Virus record (IMG/VR): IMGVR_UViG_3300003885_000003
Span: 1 to 59,528 of that record
Source: a virus
Strand: one strand, 5' to 3'
DNA length: 59,528 nucleotides
In this document: piece by piece, positions 32,841 to 57,933 of the stretch
Position numbering within the stretch: the first letter of the stretch is position 1
Layout of the letters: each line of letters starts with the position of its first letter
Notes under the pieces: generated by a model
What the model saw: the letters and a program-made list of their open reading frames with translations, nothing else
Database searches by the model: none
What the model was told of the DNA's origin: nothing
Translations under genes and position numbers: made by a program

Positions 32841-33539
32841 TCAATAGAGCTTTAACGGATTGATTTCACATGTCTGTAAAAACAAGTTACCCGTCCCTCC
32901 AAATTCTTTATGTCCACCACGCAAATCGCACTTTGATTCTATTTTACCAATAGTAGGTACAATAACCAGGTCTATACCCTTCACCTGGATATTTTCATCA
33001 CAGACTTCATCGATCACAAACATGCTGTCAGGAAACGGAAATGTTCTGTTTTTTATAGAATCAATAATGACATTCTGTGCAGCCATTCCTTTATTGCTAG
33101 TAGTCATGCTATTTCTAATAGAATGCGCTATTAAAATATCTTGCGGTATACGTGCCCAAACACACCCATTCAATTTGTCAGGAGGAACCAAATACCCACC
33201 AGAAGTCCGTACCTTTTGTGTACCCACAAACTGATATACAGCAACTTTTCTATACTTACCTGTTCTTATCGCTATTACAGCATTACTCGGTGAAAACGAA
33301 TATATGTGTTTTGCCACAAAGCAAACATGAGCAATCAAATCGCTTTTATGCTTTTGAATACCATAGTCAATCAATCCAATACACGGGTCTGCTTGCCCAC
33401 GTAGCCACAATGATATGCACTCAGTATCCCCACAAGTTATCCCATAGGCTGATTTTCGTTTACGGCAAATTGGGCATAGGCTCGTTTTTTCAACATAATG
33501 CACAGCCTCAGCTACCCCGTAATGATCTCTATATCTCAT
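32841..33539 (-). CDS. Hypothetical zinc-finger protein beside the MT-A70 methylase
   Basis: The start at 33539 overlaps the last codons of the methylase. The 232-aa protein has an N-terminal treble-clef-like CPICRKRKSAYG...C....C (about 23-45) and a mixed alpha/beta remainder with VWARIPQDILIAHSIRNS. Tight coupling to the methylase suggests a partner, for example a specificity or nuclease function, but no nuclease motif was recognised. Confidence 0.6.
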   Translation of the reverse strand: MRYRDHYGVAEAVHYVEKTSLCPICRKRKSAYGITCGDTECISLWLRGQADPCIGLIDYGIQKHKSDLIAHVCFVAKHIYSFSPSNAVIAIRTGKYRKVAVYQFVGTQKVRTSGGYLVPPDKLNGCVWARIPQDILIAHSIRNSMTTSNKGMAAQNVIIDSIKNRTFPFPDSMFVIDEVCDENIQVKGIDLVIVPTIGKIESKCDLRGGHKEFGGTGNLFLQTCEINPLKLY

Positions 33540-39844: not shown

Positions 39845-40010
39845 GATCACCATCCATATCATCTATACTGTTAAAAATTCGGAAACGGCCGTTGCTTAAA
39901 TCCGAATCAGTTGTGTCCTCGCGTCTTTGCCACTCTTCAGCCAAGTCCCACATTGTATCTAAATCAACCGAACTGCTGCTGTCTGTATCCGGGTAAATAT
40001 ATATTTTCAT
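39816..40010 (-). CDS. Small acidic protein between terminase and portal (64 aa)
   Basis: GGAGGA precedes the ATG at 40010. The protein is acidic (YPDTDSSSSVDLDTMWDLAE). It overlaps both neighbours and is probably an accessory packaging protein. No family was recognised. Confidence 0.6.
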   Translation of the reverse strand: MKIYIYPDTDSSSSVDLDTMWDLAEEWQRREDTTDSDLSNGRFRIFNSIDDMDGDHGKSTSSTS

Positions 40011-41293
40011 GCTATCCTCCGCTTGCCACCACTGCCCCAGCGTGATGAAATTTGCTGTTCTTGCTGCAATTCGTCCATTCCCCCCCAACCCCCGCTATGA
40101 GCAATTCCTTGCCATGCAATAGCTAATGCCATTACCGTATCATCGTGCATTCCTGATGGCGCACTATAACTATACCCCGACGCAATCTTCTTAGCTTCGT
40201 ATGCTGATAATTCGTTTATGGTCGTATCGTCTGGCAATATGCTGATTTCCTGATGTTCAAAAGCAGACTGCAATAATTGAATAATCGGCGCCTTTGTTGC
40301 ACTACTGGTATGAAATGGAACGATCAGCATGTCTCGCTGTCGCAGATGATCGATAACTGGCTGACCAATACTGTTATCCTCAATTATCATGGATTTTAGA
40401 TTGAAACGACCGTATACTGCATGAAGCCGATCTTCTAGTGCAGTGTAGCCAATGCGCCGAAACCTGTCCTTGTATACCTCGCTCCGGGTTGCAACATCAA
40501 ATACAGATACTACTGTATAATCAGCGGCATCGGCCACATCAACACCAGCAATATATTGTTTAGCTCCATCAGCCGCATCTAGCCAGGCCGACGTTGCACA
40601 TTCAGTTATATTGCGAAATACCATGCCCTCACCGCTTACAATTCTGGCAAGATATTCTTGATTAAACAGCCATGTGGGAACCTCCCGTTTTACTTCGTCA
40701 ATGGCTGAATTCTCAATATACTGATTGTCATAGGACGTTGCATGAAGTTGCAGCCAATTATCGCGATCTGCTGCGCCACGCCATAACTGAGCCGCCCAAT
40801 TGTTGCCTTTCGGTACACCGGAAAATGCCGCCCATCCGCTAAAATCCAACAATGTCGCCTGAATGTATTCCTGCCAGACAATCTCTTGCATTAGACTGAA
40901 TTCATCTAATACAACTCCGCGAATGCCTTCTCCCGCCAATGACGATGGATTATCGGCCGTTCGGAACCAAATTTCACCTAAGCCAGGTAGACGAATTTCA
41001 AAGCGACTACGATTTATATGTTCTCGCTCCACCAAGCCCAACGCACGAATAACCTTCCTAGCAATCGTTGTTACTTCACGCCAGGCACGTTTCATTGATG
41101 CGCTGCGCCATGAAATACCTGTCCACCAGTAAAGACCAGGTTGTAACTGCATATGATAAAATATGCGCTGCACCATACCATCAGTTTTCCCATATCGCCG
41201 GCCAGCAAAGATCACGACGCTGCCAGGGTATTCTATCATCTGCCGCTGTGTTGTAGAATGCGGGGCCTTTAGTGCTATATCAATTGTTATCAT
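40007..41293 (-). CDS. Terminase large subunit
   Basis: The 428-aa protein contains the ATPase Walker A variant FAGRRYGKT (about 30-38), Walker B GVVLDEFSLM (about 126-135), and the RNase-H-like nuclease motifs AGVDVADAADYTVV (about 248) and IIEDNSIG plus HDDTVMAL (Asp residues). It packages DNA into the prohead with ATP and cuts concatemers. The start overlaps the small subunit end. Confidence 0.93.
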   Translation of the reverse strand: MITIDIALKAPHSTTQRQMIEYPGSVVIFAGRRYGKTDGMVQRIFYHMQLQPGLYWWTGISWRSASMKRAWREVTTIARKVIRALGLVEREHINRSRFEIRLPGLGEIWFRTADNPSSLAGEGIRGVVLDEFSLMQEIVWQEYIQATLLDFSGWAAFSGVPKGNNWAAQLWRGAADRDNWLQLHATSYDNQYIENSAIDEVKREVPTWLFNQEYLARIVSGEGMVFRNITECATSAWLDAADGAKQYIAGVDVADAADYTVVSVFDVATRSEVYKDRFRRIGYTALEDRLHAVYGRFNLKSMIIEDNSIGQPVIDHLRQRDMLIVPFHTSSATKAPIIQLLQSAFEHQEISILPDDTTINELSAYEAKKIASGYSYSAPSGMHDDTVMALAIAWQGIAHSGGWGGMDELQQEQQISSRWGSGGKRRIA

Positions 41294-47181: not shown

Positions 47182-47567
47182 AGCTCAGTTTCTGTGATCT
47201 CGCCGTCAGTCACGTCAATTACGCAGATATAATCCCCACCTTCCCACACAAGAAGCGCTTTAAGATGACCCGTGCTTTTCATGAGAGCCGGCAGTATAAC
47301 TTTCTGGTATGCTGTTCCGCTGCCCTCACCGGACAACGAGATTTTATAGACATACAACATTTTGGTTTCTATGTTTCCAGTTTCTTCTATTACACTCTCT
47401 CCAAATGATGTAGTAAAAATCATTTTCGTTTCATTATGATTTAATGCTACTTGATACTGCATACAAAACCCTTTGCGTTGCATATCGTCACTAAATTGCA
47501 ACGCAACAAGCGGCATTTTCAGCCTGTGCAGTGTTTTCGTGCGCCAGTTTGTTATGTTGTAGCTCAT
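47178..47567 (-). CDS. Hypothetical protein with shared N-terminus (129 aa)
   Basis: It starts MSYNITNWRTKTLHRL, an N-terminal segment shared with the next gene upstream (47564), including nearby DNA. After residue about 25 it differs fully and becomes beta-rich (LYVYKISLSGEGSGTAYQKV). It looks like a fixed leader segment joined to different bodies. Confidence 0.6.
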   Translation of the reverse strand: MSYNITNWRTKTLHRLKMPLVALQFSDDMQRKGFCMQYQVALNHNETKMIFTTSFGESVIEETGNIETKMLYVYKISLSGEGSGTAYQKVILPALMKSTGHLKALLVWEGGDYICVIDVTDGEITETEL

Positions 47568-47965
47568 AATAATGTTTTCGCTTTGAGGTGGCTTACCAGG
47601 TCGGCTATCCGGGTAACCATGTCGTTGATCAGGTCGTCTACCCTGTTGGCTATCAGGTCGGCAACCAGGTCGTCTACCCTGTTGGCTATCAGGTCGTCTA
47701 CCCTGTTGGCTATCAGGTCGGCAACCAGGTCGGCAGCCAGGTCGGATAGGTAGCCAACAGGGTCGTCTACCCGTTTTGCAGCCAAGTCGTATACCAGGTC
47801 GGCAACCAGGTTGTCTACCAGGTCAGATAGGTAGCAAACCTGGTCGTCTACCCGGTTGGCAGCCAAGTTGTCTACTAGGTCGTTTACACCAAATTGCAAC
47901 GCATCAAGTAAAGGTTCCAGTACGTGCAGTATTTTCGTGCGCCAGCGGGTTATGTTGTAGCTCAT
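47564..47965 (-). CDS. Repeat protein with shared N-terminus (133 aa)
   Basis: After MSYNITRWRTKILHVLE comes a long helical repeat region (about 28-118) made of short units such as DLVADLIANRVDDL and YLSDL, with unit lengths of about 7, 11 and 18 residues. Regular Leu/Val spacing suggests an amphipathic coiled structure. The DNA repeats are short tandem copies, so unit number should vary. Confidence 0.6.
   Translation of the reverse strand: MSYNITRWRTKILHVLEPLLDALQFGVNDLVDNLAANRVDDQVCYLSDLVDNLVADLVYDLAAKRVDDPVGYLSDLAADLVADLIANRVDDLIANRVDDLVADLIANRVDDLINDMVTRIADLVSHLKAKTLL
47600..47880. repeat. Minisatellite-like repeats in gene 47564
   Basis: Many copies of GTCGTCTACCC and CAGGTCGGCAACCAGGTCG and GTTGGCTATCAGGTCG are arranged head to tail. 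Replication slippage or recombination would change length in multiples that mostly keep the frame. Confidence 0.8.
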
Positions 47966-53147: not shown

Positions 53148-53474
53148 GTGATATTTGAAACATTACACGAATCAGCTCAGCGAGGCGAGTTAATTTTAAT
53201 TGACGGTGGTTTTTGCCATTGGCATTTACGCCGTGACCAACAACTAACTATCCGCGAAATAATCAGCATACGGCCGGGCGCTGGGTCTGAGATGTTAGCG
53301 TTTTTAATAGCTGTGCCTGGCGCAACATCTATTTTTGCAAAATGTCCTGCTGATCTGCCTGCAAATGATTGGTATGCTAATCGTGGGTTTCTCTGTGAGG
53401 GAATTCAGACAACACGAACCGGGCGGCAACTGAAATTATGGCGACTACCAATTCCAGGAGGTGATGCACGATGA
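53148..53474 (+). CDS. GNAT-like acetyltransferase (108 aa)
   Basis: A GTG start. The sequence has the phage GNAT pattern: HWHLRRDQQLTIREIISI, IRPGAGSEMLAFL (pyrophosphate-binding-like loop), AKCPADLPANDWYANRGF and LKLWRLP. Short versions of this fold are frequent in phages; the substrate is unknown. The loop is shortened compared with active enzymes. Confidence 0.65.
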   Translation: MIFETLHESAQRGELILIDGGFCHWHLRRDQQLTIREIISIRPGAGSEMLAFLIAVPGATSIFAKCPADLPANDWYANRGFLCEGIQTTRTGRQLKLWRLPIPGGDAR

Positions 53475-54208
53475 AAAAACACCAGCACCAGATAGCAAAT
53501 AAACGGGTATCTGCTACTGGTATGCTATCTGGTGCTGGCATAGATTTGATTTACTGTGCGTCTGGTAACAAACGTTTTGCGAAAATCGCAATTGATGCCG
53601 GATTTTTGTATGGTGCTCAATTACCTGGCACTGTTTATCATCCGATTTATTTTGCTGATCAAAACTGGAAAAAACCAAATCGGCAGAAATATATGGACGC
53701 ATTAGAAAAGCATAGACCATTTATGGCAACAGTTTTAGATTTTGAGCGAATAGACCAATTATCAGAAGTTTTGTCGTGGGCTGAGGAAGCGGCTCGATTT
53801 GTTGAGGTCGTAATGATTATACCAAAATGTTTTGGTTGTATTGTAAAATTGCCGCATATCATTGGAAACAAACCAATCAGATTGGCGTACTCTGTTCCTA
53901 CGCGCTACGGTGGCACATCCGTGCCCGTTTGGGAATTCTGGAATAGACCCGTACATCTCCTCGGCGGCAGTCCACAGAAACAAATGAGATTACGACCTTA
54001 CTTTGATGTAAGGTCTGTTGATGGGAATATGATGCAAAAAGCGGCCGTGACTTGGTGCGGATTCTGGCAACCAGGCACGGCTAGATATGCGTCAAATAGA
54101 TGGTGGCCGACACTAAAAGAATCTGGGAGTCATGTAGTCACGGATGCACCATACGAAGCATTTAGTCGTTCGTGTGAAAGTATTATGCAGGCATGGTTGA
54201 CATTATAA
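53471..54208 (+). CDS. TGT-like TIM-barrel protein (DUF6610-type)
   Basis: The 245-aa protein resembles queuine/archaeosine transglycosylase-like barrels: GIDLIYCASGNKRF, ATVLDFERIDQLSEVLSWAEE, VPTRYGGTSVPVWEF, HLLGGSPQKQ and VRSVDGNMMQKAA. DpdA-type relatives insert 7-deazaguanines into DNA, but no preQ0 or preQ1 biosynthesis gene is in the window, so it would use host precursors or do something else. The start overlaps the GNAT-like gene by four bases. Confidence 0.7.
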   Translation: MKKHQHQIANKRVSATGMLSGAGIDLIYCASGNKRFAKIAIDAGFLYGAQLPGTVYHPIYFADQNWKKPNRQKYMDALEKHRPFMATVLDFERIDQLSEVLSWAEEAARFVEVVMIIPKCFGCIVKLPHIIGNKPIRLAYSVPTRYGGTSVPVWEFWNRPVHLLGGSPQKQMRLRPYFDVRSVDGNMMQKAAVTWCGFWQPGTARYASNRWWPTLKESGSHVVTDAPYEAFSRSCESIMQAWLTL

Positions 54209-54211
54209 AAC

Positions 54212-54297
54212 GGCCGTATCTCTTTTCAGGAGACACGGCCACAATCGGGTCGTTGTCGTGTTAGCGGGAGTGCAACACAACTATAGCGACAACGACC
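54212..54297 (+). other. Two strong hairpins between genes
   Basis: Hairpin 1 (GGCCGT.TCTC / GAGA.ACGGCC, 54212-54240) and hairpin 2 (GGTCGTTGTCG / CGACAACGACC, 54248-54297, with an inner GTGTT/AACAC) fill the gap. Neither has a T-run. A structured leader or an RNA-processing site for the following operon is possible; no promoter was recognised. Confidence 0.65.
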
Positions 54298-54312
54298 TAC
54301 AGGAATTATAGC

Positions 54313-54717
54313 ATGAAAGTAATACATGTGGTTGCCGGCGTTATTGTCGTTGCTATCCTCGTCATATTGCTTGTATCAACGGTCATCGGAAAACCTCTGG
54401 CCGATGCTCAGGCCGCAATAATGCTGCAAGAGCATACACCACTAGAATTACAATTGGCTATACGCCAGAGCCGGCAGCAGGGGAGTGGTGTAAACTGGGC
54501 GCTTATGCTGCTGCTTATCGGCATCGTTACCATAATGGCATACCTTGCTATTGGCGACCGCACAACTAAGCTGCTGCGCGCCTGGAAATCATCACGCAGA
54601 CCACACACGCCGCACCAACCACCAATGATTGAGACGGCGCATATTCAGGAACTACCAATTGCCCCAGCCGCGCCGCGACAACTGCCAGCGACAACGGAAT
54701 GGACAGACCAATCATAA
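54313..54717 (+). CDS. Membrane protein with two TM helices (134 aa)
   Basis: TM1 is at about 4-25 (VVAGVIVVAILVILLVSTV) and TM2 at about 60-80 (ALMLLLIGIVTIMAYLAI), followed by a Pro-rich cytoplasmic tail. It lies one base before the ATPase gene, so the two are likely partners in a membrane complex. Confidence 0.65.
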   Translation: MKVIHVVAGVIVVAILVILLVSTVIGKPLADAQAAIMLQEHTPLELQLAIRQSRQQGSGVNWALMLLLIGIVTIMAYLAIGDRTTKLLRAWKSSRRPHTPHQPPMIETAHIQELPIAPAAPRQLPATTEWTDQS

Positions 54718-54718
54718 A

Positions 54719-56245
54719 ATGAAGTATATTCTACTCCTTACTCTGATTTTAGCTTCATGCAGCGCCGCGACTACTGGCAGTCCATCCGAACTGCGCCAGC
54801 AGGCAGCGCAAATTGAAAATGCAACTGCGCAGGCGGCGACTTACGCGCAGGCGGCAGAGTTGGAGCGCCAGCAGAGTACCCGCGGCGCGGCAACGGTAGC
54901 GGCGATGCAAATCACCATTGAGGCGGCTAATGTCGCTCTGGCAATGCAACGTGACGCGGCGACGGCAACGGCCGTATCCGCACGTCGTGAGAGTGTAGCA
55001 ACAATGGAAGCGGCTCAGGCTCAGGCAACAGCCACGGCCGTTGCCAAAGTGACTGATGACGCACAGAATGAACTTCTATTTTTGCAAGGACTGGAATACG
55101 ACCGGCAACGGCTACAGCAGGAAATTGTACGCGGGTACGCATGGGCGGCCGTGCAAATTCTGGCGGTAACGGCCGTTGTTGGAGCAATCATGCTGATGAT
55201 TCTTACCATCGCTCGACGGCCACAAAATGACCAGGCTGCCCCGCAGTCAGTACAAATTCACGGCCTAACGCTCATCCAGGATACAAGCCGGCAAAGCCCG
55301 TTTGAACGGCTGGTAGCACCTAATTCAGCGCCCTGGGTGCGCGTGGGGCCAGCCCGGCCGGTTGTAAAGAATGCGCCACTAATGTTACCAGCGCCAGCAA
55401 TCACGCTGCCAGTATTACCTACTGGTCACGTATTGATTGCTGGTGAAACTGGTAGCGGCAAATCAACGGCAATGAAAGCTGTGTTGGCATCGCGGGAAAA
55501 CGTGACGGTTTTGGACCCACACGCTGCGCCGAGCGAGTGGTCTGGCGCACACGTTCTAGGTGGCGGCCGTAATTTCGATGCTATCAATGAACACATGAAT
55601 TACATGAGACGGGTCTTGTCTGAGCGATACGCTGCGCGGAACAATGGTCAACGTAGTTTCGATGCAATAACTGTTGCCACCGACGAGATGCCGGCAATTG
55701 TGTCTGCGTTAGGTCGTGGAATTGGAGATGCCTGGCGCGAGTGGTTGCGAGAAGGTCGCAAAGTGGGCTTATTTTTTGTAGTATCGACACAAAGCACACG
55801 GGTAAAAACACTTGGGATAAGAGGTGAGGGTGATTTACTCGAAAACTTCGCTGCTGTATTGGAGTTGGGCAAAGTCGCCCAGGGCAATCACCGCGATCTG
55901 ACGGCTAGACAAGATCGCCCGGCCGTGCTGACAACCATTAACGGTGTGCAGCCGGTTGTTATTCCGTATCACGATCATGATCATGAGCAACAACATCAGT
56001 CACTGTATACAGCGCCACCGGCTTTATTTGACGATCCTACCGTAACTGGCTTGGAAACTGCCAAAGGCAATATTACGGCTGAACAATTCAGAATAGCATC
56101 GCGATTACTTAGGCAAAAAACCCAGACAGGACGGCCGTCAGGCAACGCGATTCAGAGCGTGGTGTGGGGTTATTCAGGCGGCAATGCGTATTATTATTTG
56201 GAGCAAATAAAAAGAGAGATTGAAATCAATACCGAGGGCACATAA
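54719..56245 (+). CDS. Lipoprotein-tethered FtsK/HerA-like ATPase (508 aa)
   Basis: Order of parts: lipoprotein signal with lipobox LASC (Cys 14); Ala/Thr/Gln-rich coiled region (about 25-130); TM helix (about 141-165); P-loop ATPase with LIAGETGSGKST (239-250), Walker-B-like ITVATDEMPAI (317-327) and FFVVSTQSTR. This is an FtsK/TraB/VirB4-like DNA-pump domain held in the membrane. The start at 54719 is chosen for its signal peptide. Such proteins are known from plasmids and integrative elements; in a tailed phage it is unusual. Confidence 0.78.
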   Translation: MKYILLLTLILASCSAATTGSPSELRQQAAQIENATAQAATYAQAAELERQQSTRGAATVAAMQITIEAANVALAMQRDAATATAVSARRESVATMEAAQAQATATAVAKVTDDAQNELLFLQGLEYDRQRLQQEIVRGYAWAAVQILAVTAVVGAIMLMILTIARRPQNDQAAPQSVQIHGLTLIQDTSRQSPFERLVAPNSAPWVRVGPARPVVKNAPLMLPAPAITLPVLPTGHVLIAGETGSGKSTAMKAVLASRENVTVLDPHAAPSEWSGAHVLGGGRNFDAINEHMNYMRRVLSERYAARNNGQRSFDAITVATDEMPAIVSALGRGIGDAWREWLREGRKVGLFFVVSTQSTRVKTLGIRGEGDLLENFAAVLELGKVAQGNHRDLTARQDRPAVLTTINGVQPVVIPYHDHDHEQQHQSLYTAPPALFDDPTVTGLETAKGNITAEQFRIASRLLRQKTQTGRPSGNAIQSVVWGYSGGNAYYYLEQIKREIEINTEGT

Positions 56246-56376
56246 ATGACACTTTTGGCGGTATTGGGTATCAGTACTAAATCAATACTACCAGAGAGGA
56301 ACTGCCAATACTAGCCTAAGTATTGGGTATTGATTCAGTATTGATTCAGTACTGGCAAAAACAGGAATAATTGAGC
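56246..56376. repeat. Iteron-like repeat cluster
   Basis: An 18-bp near-perfect inverted repeat (CAGTACTAAATCAATACT at 56272-56289 and AGTATTGATTCAGTACTG at 56337-56354) with further GTATTG(A/G) copies between them. It could be an operator, a partition site or an origin next to the ATPase gene. A 22-codon ORF overlaps the left part but is not called. Confidence 0.65.
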
Positions 56377-57015
56377 ATGAAATTAACCGACAAACTGAAC
56401 GAATTAGAGGACAGCGCCATCGACGTTATTGGCGTTTTCGGCCCCTGGCTAGGCCCCCTGCCAAGCGCTTACCTGGTTGGCGCAGCAGCTATCAAATATC
56501 TTGGTTGGCCGCCTGTCATCGCCCTGGTTGCGGCCGTTGCCGTCGAATCAATTGGTGTATTGTCGGTTGTTTTGGCACTGCGTCTCTATGAGTGGAATGA
56601 GACAAAAAACAAAACTGATCCTACTGCGCCGTTGTGGTTGGCTGTGTCGCTGGTTGCATTTTATTTTGTGGTGACGATTGGTCTCACTGTGATGCTGGAT
56701 GTAATACCGGAATTGGCCCGATACGCGCCTGCTGTGTTCCCTTTATTGGCGGCCGTTGGTGCGGTAAACATCGCTATTAAAAACGGCCAGCGACGGCGTG
56801 AGGCTGAAAAGCTGGCTAAAAAATCTGAGCGATACAGCCAGCGAAACCAGCCAGCGAAACCAGCGAACCGAGCGAGCGAACCGGTGAGCAAATTCGCTTA
56901 TATTTGCTCATGCGGTCGAGAGTTTGACAGTCAGAACGCATTGAATGGTCATAAGCGAACGTGCAAAACATCAGCGAATGGTCAGCGAAAAGTCAGCGAA
57001 AAGTCAGCGAATTGA
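56377..57015 (+). CDS. Four-TM membrane protein with C-terminal C2H2 finger (212 aa)
   Basis: Hydrophobic segments at about 18-37, 45-67, 84-108 and 118-134 are followed by a basic linker and a classic CSCGREFDSQNALNGHKRTC-type finger (about 172-190). DUF2637-like Chloroflexota/actinobacterial elements have related membrane proteins beside FtsK-like pumps. Membrane plus DNA-binding finger suggests anchoring of DNA to the membrane. Confidence 0.7.
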   Translation: MKLTDKLNELEDSAIDVIGVFGPWLGPLPSAYLVGAAAIKYLGWPPVIALVAAVAVESIGVLSVVLALRLYEWNETKNKTDPTAPLWLAVSLVAFYFVVTIGLTVMLDVIPELARYAPAVFPLLAAVGAVNIAIKNGQRRREAEKLAKKSERYSQRNQPAKPANRASEPVSKFAYICSCGREFDSQNALNGHKRTCKTSANGQRKVSEKSAN

Positions 57016-57025
57016 GGATGATGCG

Positions 57026-57277
57026 ATGATTGACACTATCATGCAAACGGCCGTAACGTGGTCAGAATTAACGCGGTTACTTGTGGCTGCCGGGTGGGTT
57101 GTTTTCTGCATGTATTGCCTAATTGTTATTCGTGGTTTTTGGAATTCGTGGTTTGCGGCTAGTCCAGTCACTGCTGCGCTGCTAGGCTGGCCGCTGTTGG
57201 TGTTAGGCTGTGCGTTTTGGGGCATCATGGCTTTGGGCGGCGTGGCCGTAATTATTAACAGCGTATATTTTTATTAA
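57026..57277 (+). CDS. Small membrane protein (83 aa)
   Basis: The start at 57026 has GAGGATG upstream. TM helices at about 18-40 and 48-75 (PLLVLGCAFWGIMALGGVAVI). It continues the membrane-protein operon. Confidence 0.6.
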   Translation: MIDTIMQTAVTWSELTRLLVAAGWVVFCMYCLIVIRGFWNSWFAASPVTAALLGWPLLVLGCAFWGIMALGGVAVIINSVYFY

Positions 57278-57290
57278 ATGGAGGTGGATA

Positions 57291-57473
57291 ATGAATGATG
57301 GCACAAAGGTCAGAATAACCCAACTCTCACTTATGGTCGGGATCATCTTAGCAGTGACTGGCTACATGCTCATGATCCAATACAACGGGTTGAGCCTAAT
57401 TGTACTGCCAGTCGGCACAGGGATGACATGGTTTGCGGTGGCAACGGCCGTATACCGTAGGTTAAAGCAATGA
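57291..57473 (+). CDS. Small membrane protein, tandem paralogue 1 (60 aa)
   Basis: Two TM segments (LMVGIILAVTGYMLMI and LSLIVLPVGTGMTWFAVATAV) and a basic end YRRLKQ. GGAGG lies upstream. The next gene has the same layout. Confidence 0.65.
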   Translation: MNDGTKVRITQLSLMVGIILAVTGYMLMIQYNGLSLIVLPVGTGMTWFAVATAVYRRLKQ

Positions 57474-57649
57474 ATGACAGCACAAAGGTAAAACTAAACC
57501 AATTAGCATTCCTAACCAGTATCTTCATAACTGCGACTGGTTGCAAGCTCGTAATCCAATACAATTACTTTGGCCTGCTTGTGCTGATAATTGGCATAGG
57601 GTTGCTATTTTTTGCGGTGACAATAGCCGCAAACTGCGAATTCAAATAG
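57470..57649 (+). CDS. Small membrane protein, tandem paralogue 2 (59 aa)
   Basis: The start overlaps the stop of paralogue 1 (ATGA). The opening (MNDSTKVKLNQLAF) aligns with MNDGTKVRITQLSL; both then have two TM helices. It ends NCEFK. The pair arose by tandem duplication. Confidence 0.65.
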   Translation: MNDSTKVKLNQLAFLTSIFITATGCKLVIQYNYFGLLVLIIGIGLLFFAVTIAANCEFK

Positions 57650-57669: not shown

Positions 57670-57933
57670 ATGGACAACTATTTACTCGAAGACTTAGCAG
57701 AAGTTCGGCATGACATATGGTTGCGTGAACAAATAGCAGAAGTTCAGCATGACATATGGTCACATTGGATGAAATACATGTTTTCGCAAGGCGTAATGCA
57801 GGATGGTTCTTGGCTTATGCCAGAAGAAAAGGTCTTGCGTTGGAAGCGACAAATGAAAACCGCTTATTCTGATCTAACAGAAAATGAGCGCGAATCTGAT
57901 AGGGATCAAGCTGACAAGATTCTGGAAATTTAA
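57670..57933 (+). CDS. Conserved small phage protein (WSHWM...SDRDQADK family)
   Basis: The 87-aa protein has an N-terminal duplicated 'IAEV.HDIW' and a conserved WSHWMKYMFSQG, W.RQM.T.YS.LTE and SDRDQADKIL. This combination is frequent in environmental phages, function unknown. Confidence 0.65.
   Translation: MDNYLLEDLAEVRHDIWLREQIAEVQHDIWSHWMKYMFSQGVMQDGSWLMPEEKVLRWKRQMKTAYSDLTENERESDRDQADKILEI

Follow-up and report, generated by a model that had tools for sequence, protein, structure and literature searches.

The operon at positions 54,313-57,649 of a viral genome record (IMG/VR virus record IMGVR_UViG_3300003885_000003, 59,528 nucleotides; this whole stretch is called the window) may encode a membrane translocase for double-stranded DNA, like the TraB and TcpA motors of mobile elements, that would spread the element's DNA across septa to a neighbouring or daughter cell. 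We advance this reading tentatively, at somewhat short of an even chance. The proposed likeness is one of function: the module may work as a TraB or TcpA motor does, and membership of either family is not claimed. The parts on which the reading depends were seen by sequence or by model and comprise a tethered FtsK-family motor, a conserved partner with two transmembrane (TM) segments, and a multi-TM partner whose tail is of a DNA-binding type.

A tethered motor of the FtsK branch

The central gene (54,719-56,245, plus strand) encodes P0001, a 508-residue fusion of a predicted lipoprotein signal, a coil, a TM segment and an FtsK-family motor. Its start was set at 54,719, one base past the preceding stop codon; the upstream TTG (54,629) proposed by the open reading frame tool is not needed. 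Read directly, the N-terminus (MKYILLLTLILASC) contains the lipobox LILASC and is a predicted lipoprotein signal. A coil of about 120 residues (123 aa), rich in alanine, threonine and glutamine, is modelled as one unbroken helix, and the single TM segment spans about residues 147-165. In the motor, alignment identifies Walker A (GETGSGKST, residues 242-250; 55,442-55,468, plus strand), and alignment and a script identify Walker B (VATDEM, residues 319-324; 55,673-55,690, plus strand). The motor domain is modelled at a predicted local distance difference test score of about 80-90, and the C-terminal region at low confidence. The likeness of this C-terminus to the GYxGGxY motif that ends pDU1-type proteins suggests a putative DNA-binding helix-turn-helix (HTH).

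A profile built from 13 relatives matched FtsK best among Protein Data Bank (PDB) entries (2iuu, 1.4e-11), in two colinear stretches over the motor. Matches of this profile to midasin and dynein were set aside as P-loop matches. The original prediction, made from the letters of the window alone, had proposed a structure search of the ATPase. Foldseek, run on the P0001 model, gave TcpA of pCW3 (3.9e-7) as the top PDB match, followed by EssC and FtsK (1.3e-6), and a conserved motor domain is present. From the two Walker motifs, the colinear FtsK profile match and the matches of the modelled fold, we conclude that P0001 is a divergent motor of the FtsK branch of the FtsK/HerA superfamily. Given this family membership, P0001 would be expected, by analogy, to translocate DNA.

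Two further matches of P0001 could be attributed to other functions. It matches phrog_2666 (1.3e-9); as PHROG 2666 carries the label terminase large subunit, P0001 might serve the virion as an additional ATPase for packaging or ejection. However, a canonical TerL lies elsewhere, at 40,007-41,293 on the minus strand (phrog_2, 2.1e-31), for which reason P0001 was rejected as the packaging motor. Relatives also occur on plasmids without annotated virion genes, and the protein has both lipoprotein and TM anchors, so a virion role is extremely unlikely. Matches to the defence ATPases mads_8 and HerA lend some support to exclusion, a role raised by the original prediction, in which motor and membrane proteins would stop the incoming DNA of other phages. 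These matches are weak and centre on the P-loop fold that such ATPases have in common, neither a nuclease nor any further component of the defence systems was seen, and it is Par, recombinase and replication genes that are associated with the family instead. We consider exclusion very improbable.

Membrane partners and a phased repeat cluster

The gene preceding the ATPase (54,313-54,717, plus strand) encodes a 134-residue membrane protein with two strong TM segments by hydropathy and a proline-rich tail predicted to be cytoplasmic. An integrated or chromosomal element described below, L011, has a homologue at the same position (BLASTP 1e-5; phmmer 7e-7), which in turn matches that of a second tailed phage, L007, at 1.5e-14 (phmmer). 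We infer from these sequences that the two-TM protein may be a partner of the ATPase.

On the other side, a gap of 131 bp separates the ATPase from the multi-TM gene and holds a repeat cluster (56,263-56,354). Repeat searches and shuffles identify AGTATTGATTYAGTACTG with partial copies, 11-bp phasing and inverted arms. Four AGTATTGATTYAGTACTG sites fall within 56,272-56,354 versus 0.05 expected from shuffles, with direct copies spaced 11 bp apart and both orientations represented. The iteron-like cluster of the original prediction is therefore real, and it is a candidate operator, centromere or motor-recognition site.

The multi-TM protein (56,377-57,015, plus strand; 212 aa, with a basic tail) had been described as a four-TM protein with a C2H2 finger. 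Hydropathy clearly supports three of the hydrophobic segments and gives a weaker signal for the fourth, and the C-terminal CxC...HxxxC finger scores 19.4 bits against zf-C2H2_6, below the Pfam cut-off of 25. The protein weakly matches a TM and winged-HTH protein of L011 (phmmer 2e-4; BLASTP 0.003). Three small membrane proteins complete the operon, all on the plus strand: one of 83 aa with two TM segments (57,026-57,277) and two of 60 and 59 aa (57,291-57,473 and 57,470-57,649) that are tandem duplicates (phmmer 4e-15). The contiguity of the two-TM protein, the lipoprotein-tethered ATPase and the small membrane proteins is as originally predicted.

Just 5' of the operon, a 13-bp inverted repeat (GGTCGTTGTCG...CGACAACGACC; 54,247-54,298, plus strand) encloses a long loop. 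Folding of the strand at 54,205-54,320 (z = -6.4) gives two strong hairpins in this leader, the other being terminator-like and belonging to the preceding gene. The inverted repeat is a possible operator, attenuator or leader hairpin.

Phages and chromosomal elements share the architecture

IMG/VR scans for close relatives with the ATPase alone or with TerL gave no match, and an alignment-based query was needed to find relatives there. Alignment searches showed that the lipobox-coil-TM-motor protein and the preceding two-TM gene are kept in four elements: the window, L007, L011 and L012. The predicted lipobox cysteine is found by direct reading in each (GVGC in L007, LAAC in L011 and LVAC in L012). 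L007 encodes TerL, head and tail genes, and ParA adjoins its motor, together with a small downstream gene; measured against phage-plasmid criteria, it is a tailed phage that combines ParA, the small gene and the motor. L011 and L012, from an Anaerolineae and a Chloroflexota metagenome-assembled genome, respectively, are integrated or chromosomal and encode a serine recombinase. The order in L011 is a DUF3854 protein, an excisionase-like HTH protein, a multi-TM protein with winged HTH, the two-TM protein, the ATPase, a 152-aa gene and a large serine recombinase. This element adjoins a truncated comM whose C-terminal part lies about 68 kb off on the same contig, which places it inside an island within comM. 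The L011 contig gave no match to the PHROG_2 terminase family.

In the tree, the four elements form one clade (support 100/99), in which the window nests beside the chromosomal copies and not beside the other phage, L007 (98/94). This nesting suggests that phages and chromosomal elements have probably exchanged the module.

As a separate observation, the comM island of about 68 kb (G001 C100, about 85-153 kb; L027-L030) contains Rhs-like and restriction-like genes, and a DUF2637 protein lies just beyond its end. The L011 multi-TM protein and the nearby DUF2637 protein have the HTH tail alone in common.

Partition genes accompany the wider family

The wider family was surveyed in 400 Chloroflexota genomes, 37 of which match at 1e-8. 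Matches of FtsK length (700-1000 aa, E about 1e-9 to 1e-15) probably represent chromosomal FtsK and were excluded; once these and weak matches are removed, the short family is present in roughly 18 of the 400. Among the flanks examined, those of L067 and L075 are prophage (tail and tape measure matches), and some members lie on small contigs. L069-L071 and L076 may also be prophages, to judge from the order of their genes and from a neighbouring large gene family read as tail-like, a reading that PHROGs did not confirm. The motor usually has a multi-TM protein as its neighbour, and within one group (L065, L040, L067 and L071) these proteins are clearly homologous.

Partition and replication genes recur beside the motor. 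ALP_N (ParM-like) genes number 10 in 20 Chloroflexota genomes, and eight of these lie within about 3 kb of a motor; several of the eight pairs are close relatives, so that the independent associations may number three or four, to which cyanobacterial ones are added. Of the latter, that of L016 is confirmed and that of L019 is suggested by resemblance. ParA is near the motor in L007, L075 and L002, and at least six motors have Replic_Relax no more than about 5 kb away. The Anaerolineae prophage L075 (7,672-12,865) is a fuller version of the module, with the motor, a membrane-anchored SLT and M23 peptidoglycan hydrolase, an antirepressor-like gene, and ParA with a small gene.

The prophage copies that lie beside actin-like genes (L067, L069-L071) could instead point to a lytic-phase role in localising or replicating phage DNA at the membrane. 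There is a precedent in AlpAC of the Corynebacterium glutamicum prophage CGP3, in which AlpC places prophage DNA (PMC4446434). The position of the window operon, on the plus strand with methyltransferase genes and not with structural genes, is also consistent with such a role. However, copies on plasmids alone and in integrated elements would be left unexplained, and tethering needs no processive FtsK-type motor. The window has no recognised actin-like gene, and the AlpAC abstract mentions no FtsK-type motor. We regard this explanation as improbable.

Two near-identical contigs, the viral contig L009 and the 'TM6' contig L023, encode, besides a distant motor, a lysozyme-like product and two membrane proteins, one with three TM segments and one rich in proline, and may represent a distinct kind of small virus or plasmid.

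Relatives on plasmids of filamentous cyanobacteria

By tblastn, cultured phages gave few matches (two Bacillus phages at 28%), and clear relatives came from plasmids of cyanobacteria, one of them the 6.4-kb pDU1. The plasmid matches come from Nostoc, Tolypothrix, Calothrix, Moorena, Pseudanabaena, Allocoleopsis, Annamia and Kovacikia, all eight of which we take to be filamentous. As a control, the DUF3854 protein of one motor-bearing plasmid was searched. It matched 72 records, at least 25 of them from Synechococcus, Picosynechococcus, Cyanobacterium and Chondrocystis, which are mainly unicellular. Finding no unicellular genus among about 13 motor records would have a chance near 0.004 if the records were independent, which they are not. 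Restriction of the motor to filamentous genera among cyanobacterial plasmids is therefore a lead.

The pDU1 ATP-binding protein of Nostoc (WP_011666303) and its kin belong to the motor subfamily by BLAST and share with P0001 the motifs VxDPxAAPxxW and VKTLGIxGEG and a similar C-terminal motif. Unlike P0001, the pDU1 protein has neither lipoprotein signal nor coil. Staphylococcus plasmids gave weak tblastn matches, some annotated as FtsK, that fall outside the close family. A supposed Patescibacteria relative, L021, was discarded: this 5.7-kb pDU1-like contig shares a short branch with pDU1 and is probably bin contamination. The original prediction had proposed a search for the operon in Chloroflexota plasmids; the operon does occur outside lytic phages, on Chloroflexota integrating elements and plasmids and on plasmids of filamentous cyanobacteria, often beside partition genes.

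Setting of the operon in the phage genome

A 91-bp direct repeat common to both ends of the window indicates a complete, circularising genome of 59,437 bp. Most window genes were scanned with Pfam and PHROGs. These scans recognised TerL, the major head protein and the tape measure protein, which identify a siphovirus-type tailed phage, and no integrase, in agreement with the original prediction on both counts. Nor did they recognise a ParA, ParM or known plasmid Rep, so that maintenance of this phage as a plasmid, a role raised by the original prediction, is only a possibility. Neither a relaxase nor a VirB4-type ATPase of type IV secretion system (T4SS) conjugation was found among the scanned genes. 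Megablast of 40-50 kb of the window against phages gave no match. The operon stands among plus-strand genes apart from the recognised structural genes, which are on the minus strand. DNA methyltransferase genes were noted at 33,529, 46,333 and 51,269, among them one of MT-A70 type (Pfam 4e-22).

Upstream of the operon, at 53,471-54,208, is a DUF6610 protein (PF20314, 1.4e-36; a family of unknown function) that by eye may resemble a TGT-like enzyme. Directly past the operon is a RyR-domain-like gene (57,670-57,933; PF02026 at 7.5e-4, below the cut-off). Its motif xVQHDIWxHWMxYxFS has a similar counterpart in a gene (L034, 1,152-1,877) of the second ATPase-bearing phage. Among internal repeats of the window, the strongest is a 133-aa protein of near-identical heptad-like repeats (DLVADLIANRVDDL...) at 47,564-47,965.

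Passage across septa or segregation

In the proposed mechanism, a hexamer of the motor would sit at the cytoplasmic face of the membrane. The coils, which have 120-160 residues and if straight would measure about 18-24 nm, would extend beyond the membrane and bridge the septal zone together with the membrane partners. The motor would load at specific repeats, perhaps the 11-bp-phased cluster adjoining the ATPase gene, and pump the element's double-stranded DNA across the septum into a neighbouring filament cell or nascent daughter. In related elements, ParM or ParA would deliver the DNA to the membrane. The translocase is possibly coupled to partition; ParM and ParR of plasmid R1 promote transfer (PMC4949242).

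The close rival is vertical segregation only, in which a membrane-anchored septum-clearing motor with ParM or ParA would ensure that both daughters inherit plasmid-like prophages and plasmids, and no DNA would pass to other cells. ParM or ParA genes adjoin the motor in several lineages, the motor occurs on small plasmids such as pDU1, and the 11-bp phasing of the repeats is centromere-like. However, the module is also present on integrase elements with no Par in view (L011, L066) and in the window phage, where no Par gene was recognised, and segregation would seem to require neither the long extracytoplasmic coil nor several membrane partners. We therefore infer that passage across septa is the better account, also because the peptidoglycan hydrolase of L075 lies between motor and ParA and because the distribution is filamentous. 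Segregation alone appears somewhat unlikely. The original suggestion of a segregation or conjugation module is upheld in its FtsK-family motor and in the partition neighbours of relatives, and not in any T4SS component recognised in the window. Transfer along host filaments, by analogy and distribution only, is the best supported of the roles it had listed, and DNA uptake found no support.

Several findings weigh against passage across septa. Par adjacency fits pure segregation equally well. In Pfam scans P0001 gives mostly P-loop matches, and it misses the FtsK_SpoIIIE cut-off (PF01580; 23.0 bits versus 24), as do the motors of L007, L011, L012 and L066; the gathering score is reached by the relatives L065 and L073. 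The fold match is partial and moderate (TM-score to target 0.37, root-mean-square deviation 5 A). No repeat array like that of the window is visibly conserved beside the motors of relatives. The TM part of the multi-TM proteins is not DUF2637 by sequence, and a test of their identity as DUF2637/SpdB2 proteins gave no support. Finally, the host of the window phage, probably a filamentous Chloroflexota, is assigned from relatives only.

Comparison with known systems bears on the same question. Streptomyces TraB alone moves double-stranded DNA, and SpdB2 is a DNA-binding membrane protein that aids plasmid spread across septa (PMC4170104). Actinomycete integrative and conjugative elements (AICEs) combine an integrase, RepSA, RepAM or Prim-Pol, and an FtsK Tra protein, and a survey, on its own criteria, detected them in Actinomycetales only, save one extra putative element in Bifidobacterium (PMC3218068). 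As in both systems, an FtsK-type membrane motor is the key protein of the module. A multi-TM protein with a DNA-binding-type tail and mycelial or filamentous hosts are further likenesses to TraB/SpdB2. In contrast, the motor of the module is divergent, has a lipoprotein-coil N-terminus and is carried by tailed phages, and the module occurs in Chloroflexota and cyanobacteria where TraB/SpdB2 is known from Actinomycetales. The window multi-TM protein has no PF10935 (DUF2637) match of the SpdB2 type, and DUF2637 exceeds its cut-off in just three of the 400 Chloroflexota genomes. The TraB-SpdB2 loading repeats (clt/TRS) have a possible counterpart in the non-random repeats beside the window ATPase gene, with none seen in relatives. 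L066 is AICE-like in order (serine recombinase, multi-TM protein, motor, ribbon-helix-helix-like gene, Prim-Pol/DUF3987), yet its motor score keeps it outside the AICE definition, and no simple repeat att sites were found there. The window falls outside it as well, with neither an integrase nor such a Rep recognised.

TcpA, the best fold match, resembles P0001 in its N-terminal membrane anchor and FtsK-like motor, but no further Tcp or T4SS conjugation genes or relaxase were recognised in the window. FtsK and SpoIIIE share the motor domain, Walker motifs and membrane anchor, whereas P0001 is shorter, element-borne, and equipped with a lipoprotein signal and extracytoplasmic coil.

Implications

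On a wider reading, a single-motor system not recognised before could be common to tailed phages, integrating elements and very small plasmids in multicellular Chloroflexota and cyanobacteria. It would carry their double-stranded DNA between the cells of a filament, with an outer lipoprotein-coil conduit, and would give a virus a virion-free route of spread. We consider this wider proposal doubtful. FtsK-type conjugation of double-stranded DNA is known from actinomycetes; here a comparable module, linked to partition genes, would be common to phages and plasmids of Chloroflexota and filamentous cyanobacteria. Such a module would explain the persistence and spread of small 'non-mobilizable' plasmids in these hosts, pDU1 among them, and would make it testable whether a temperate phage crosses a multicellular filament without lysis.

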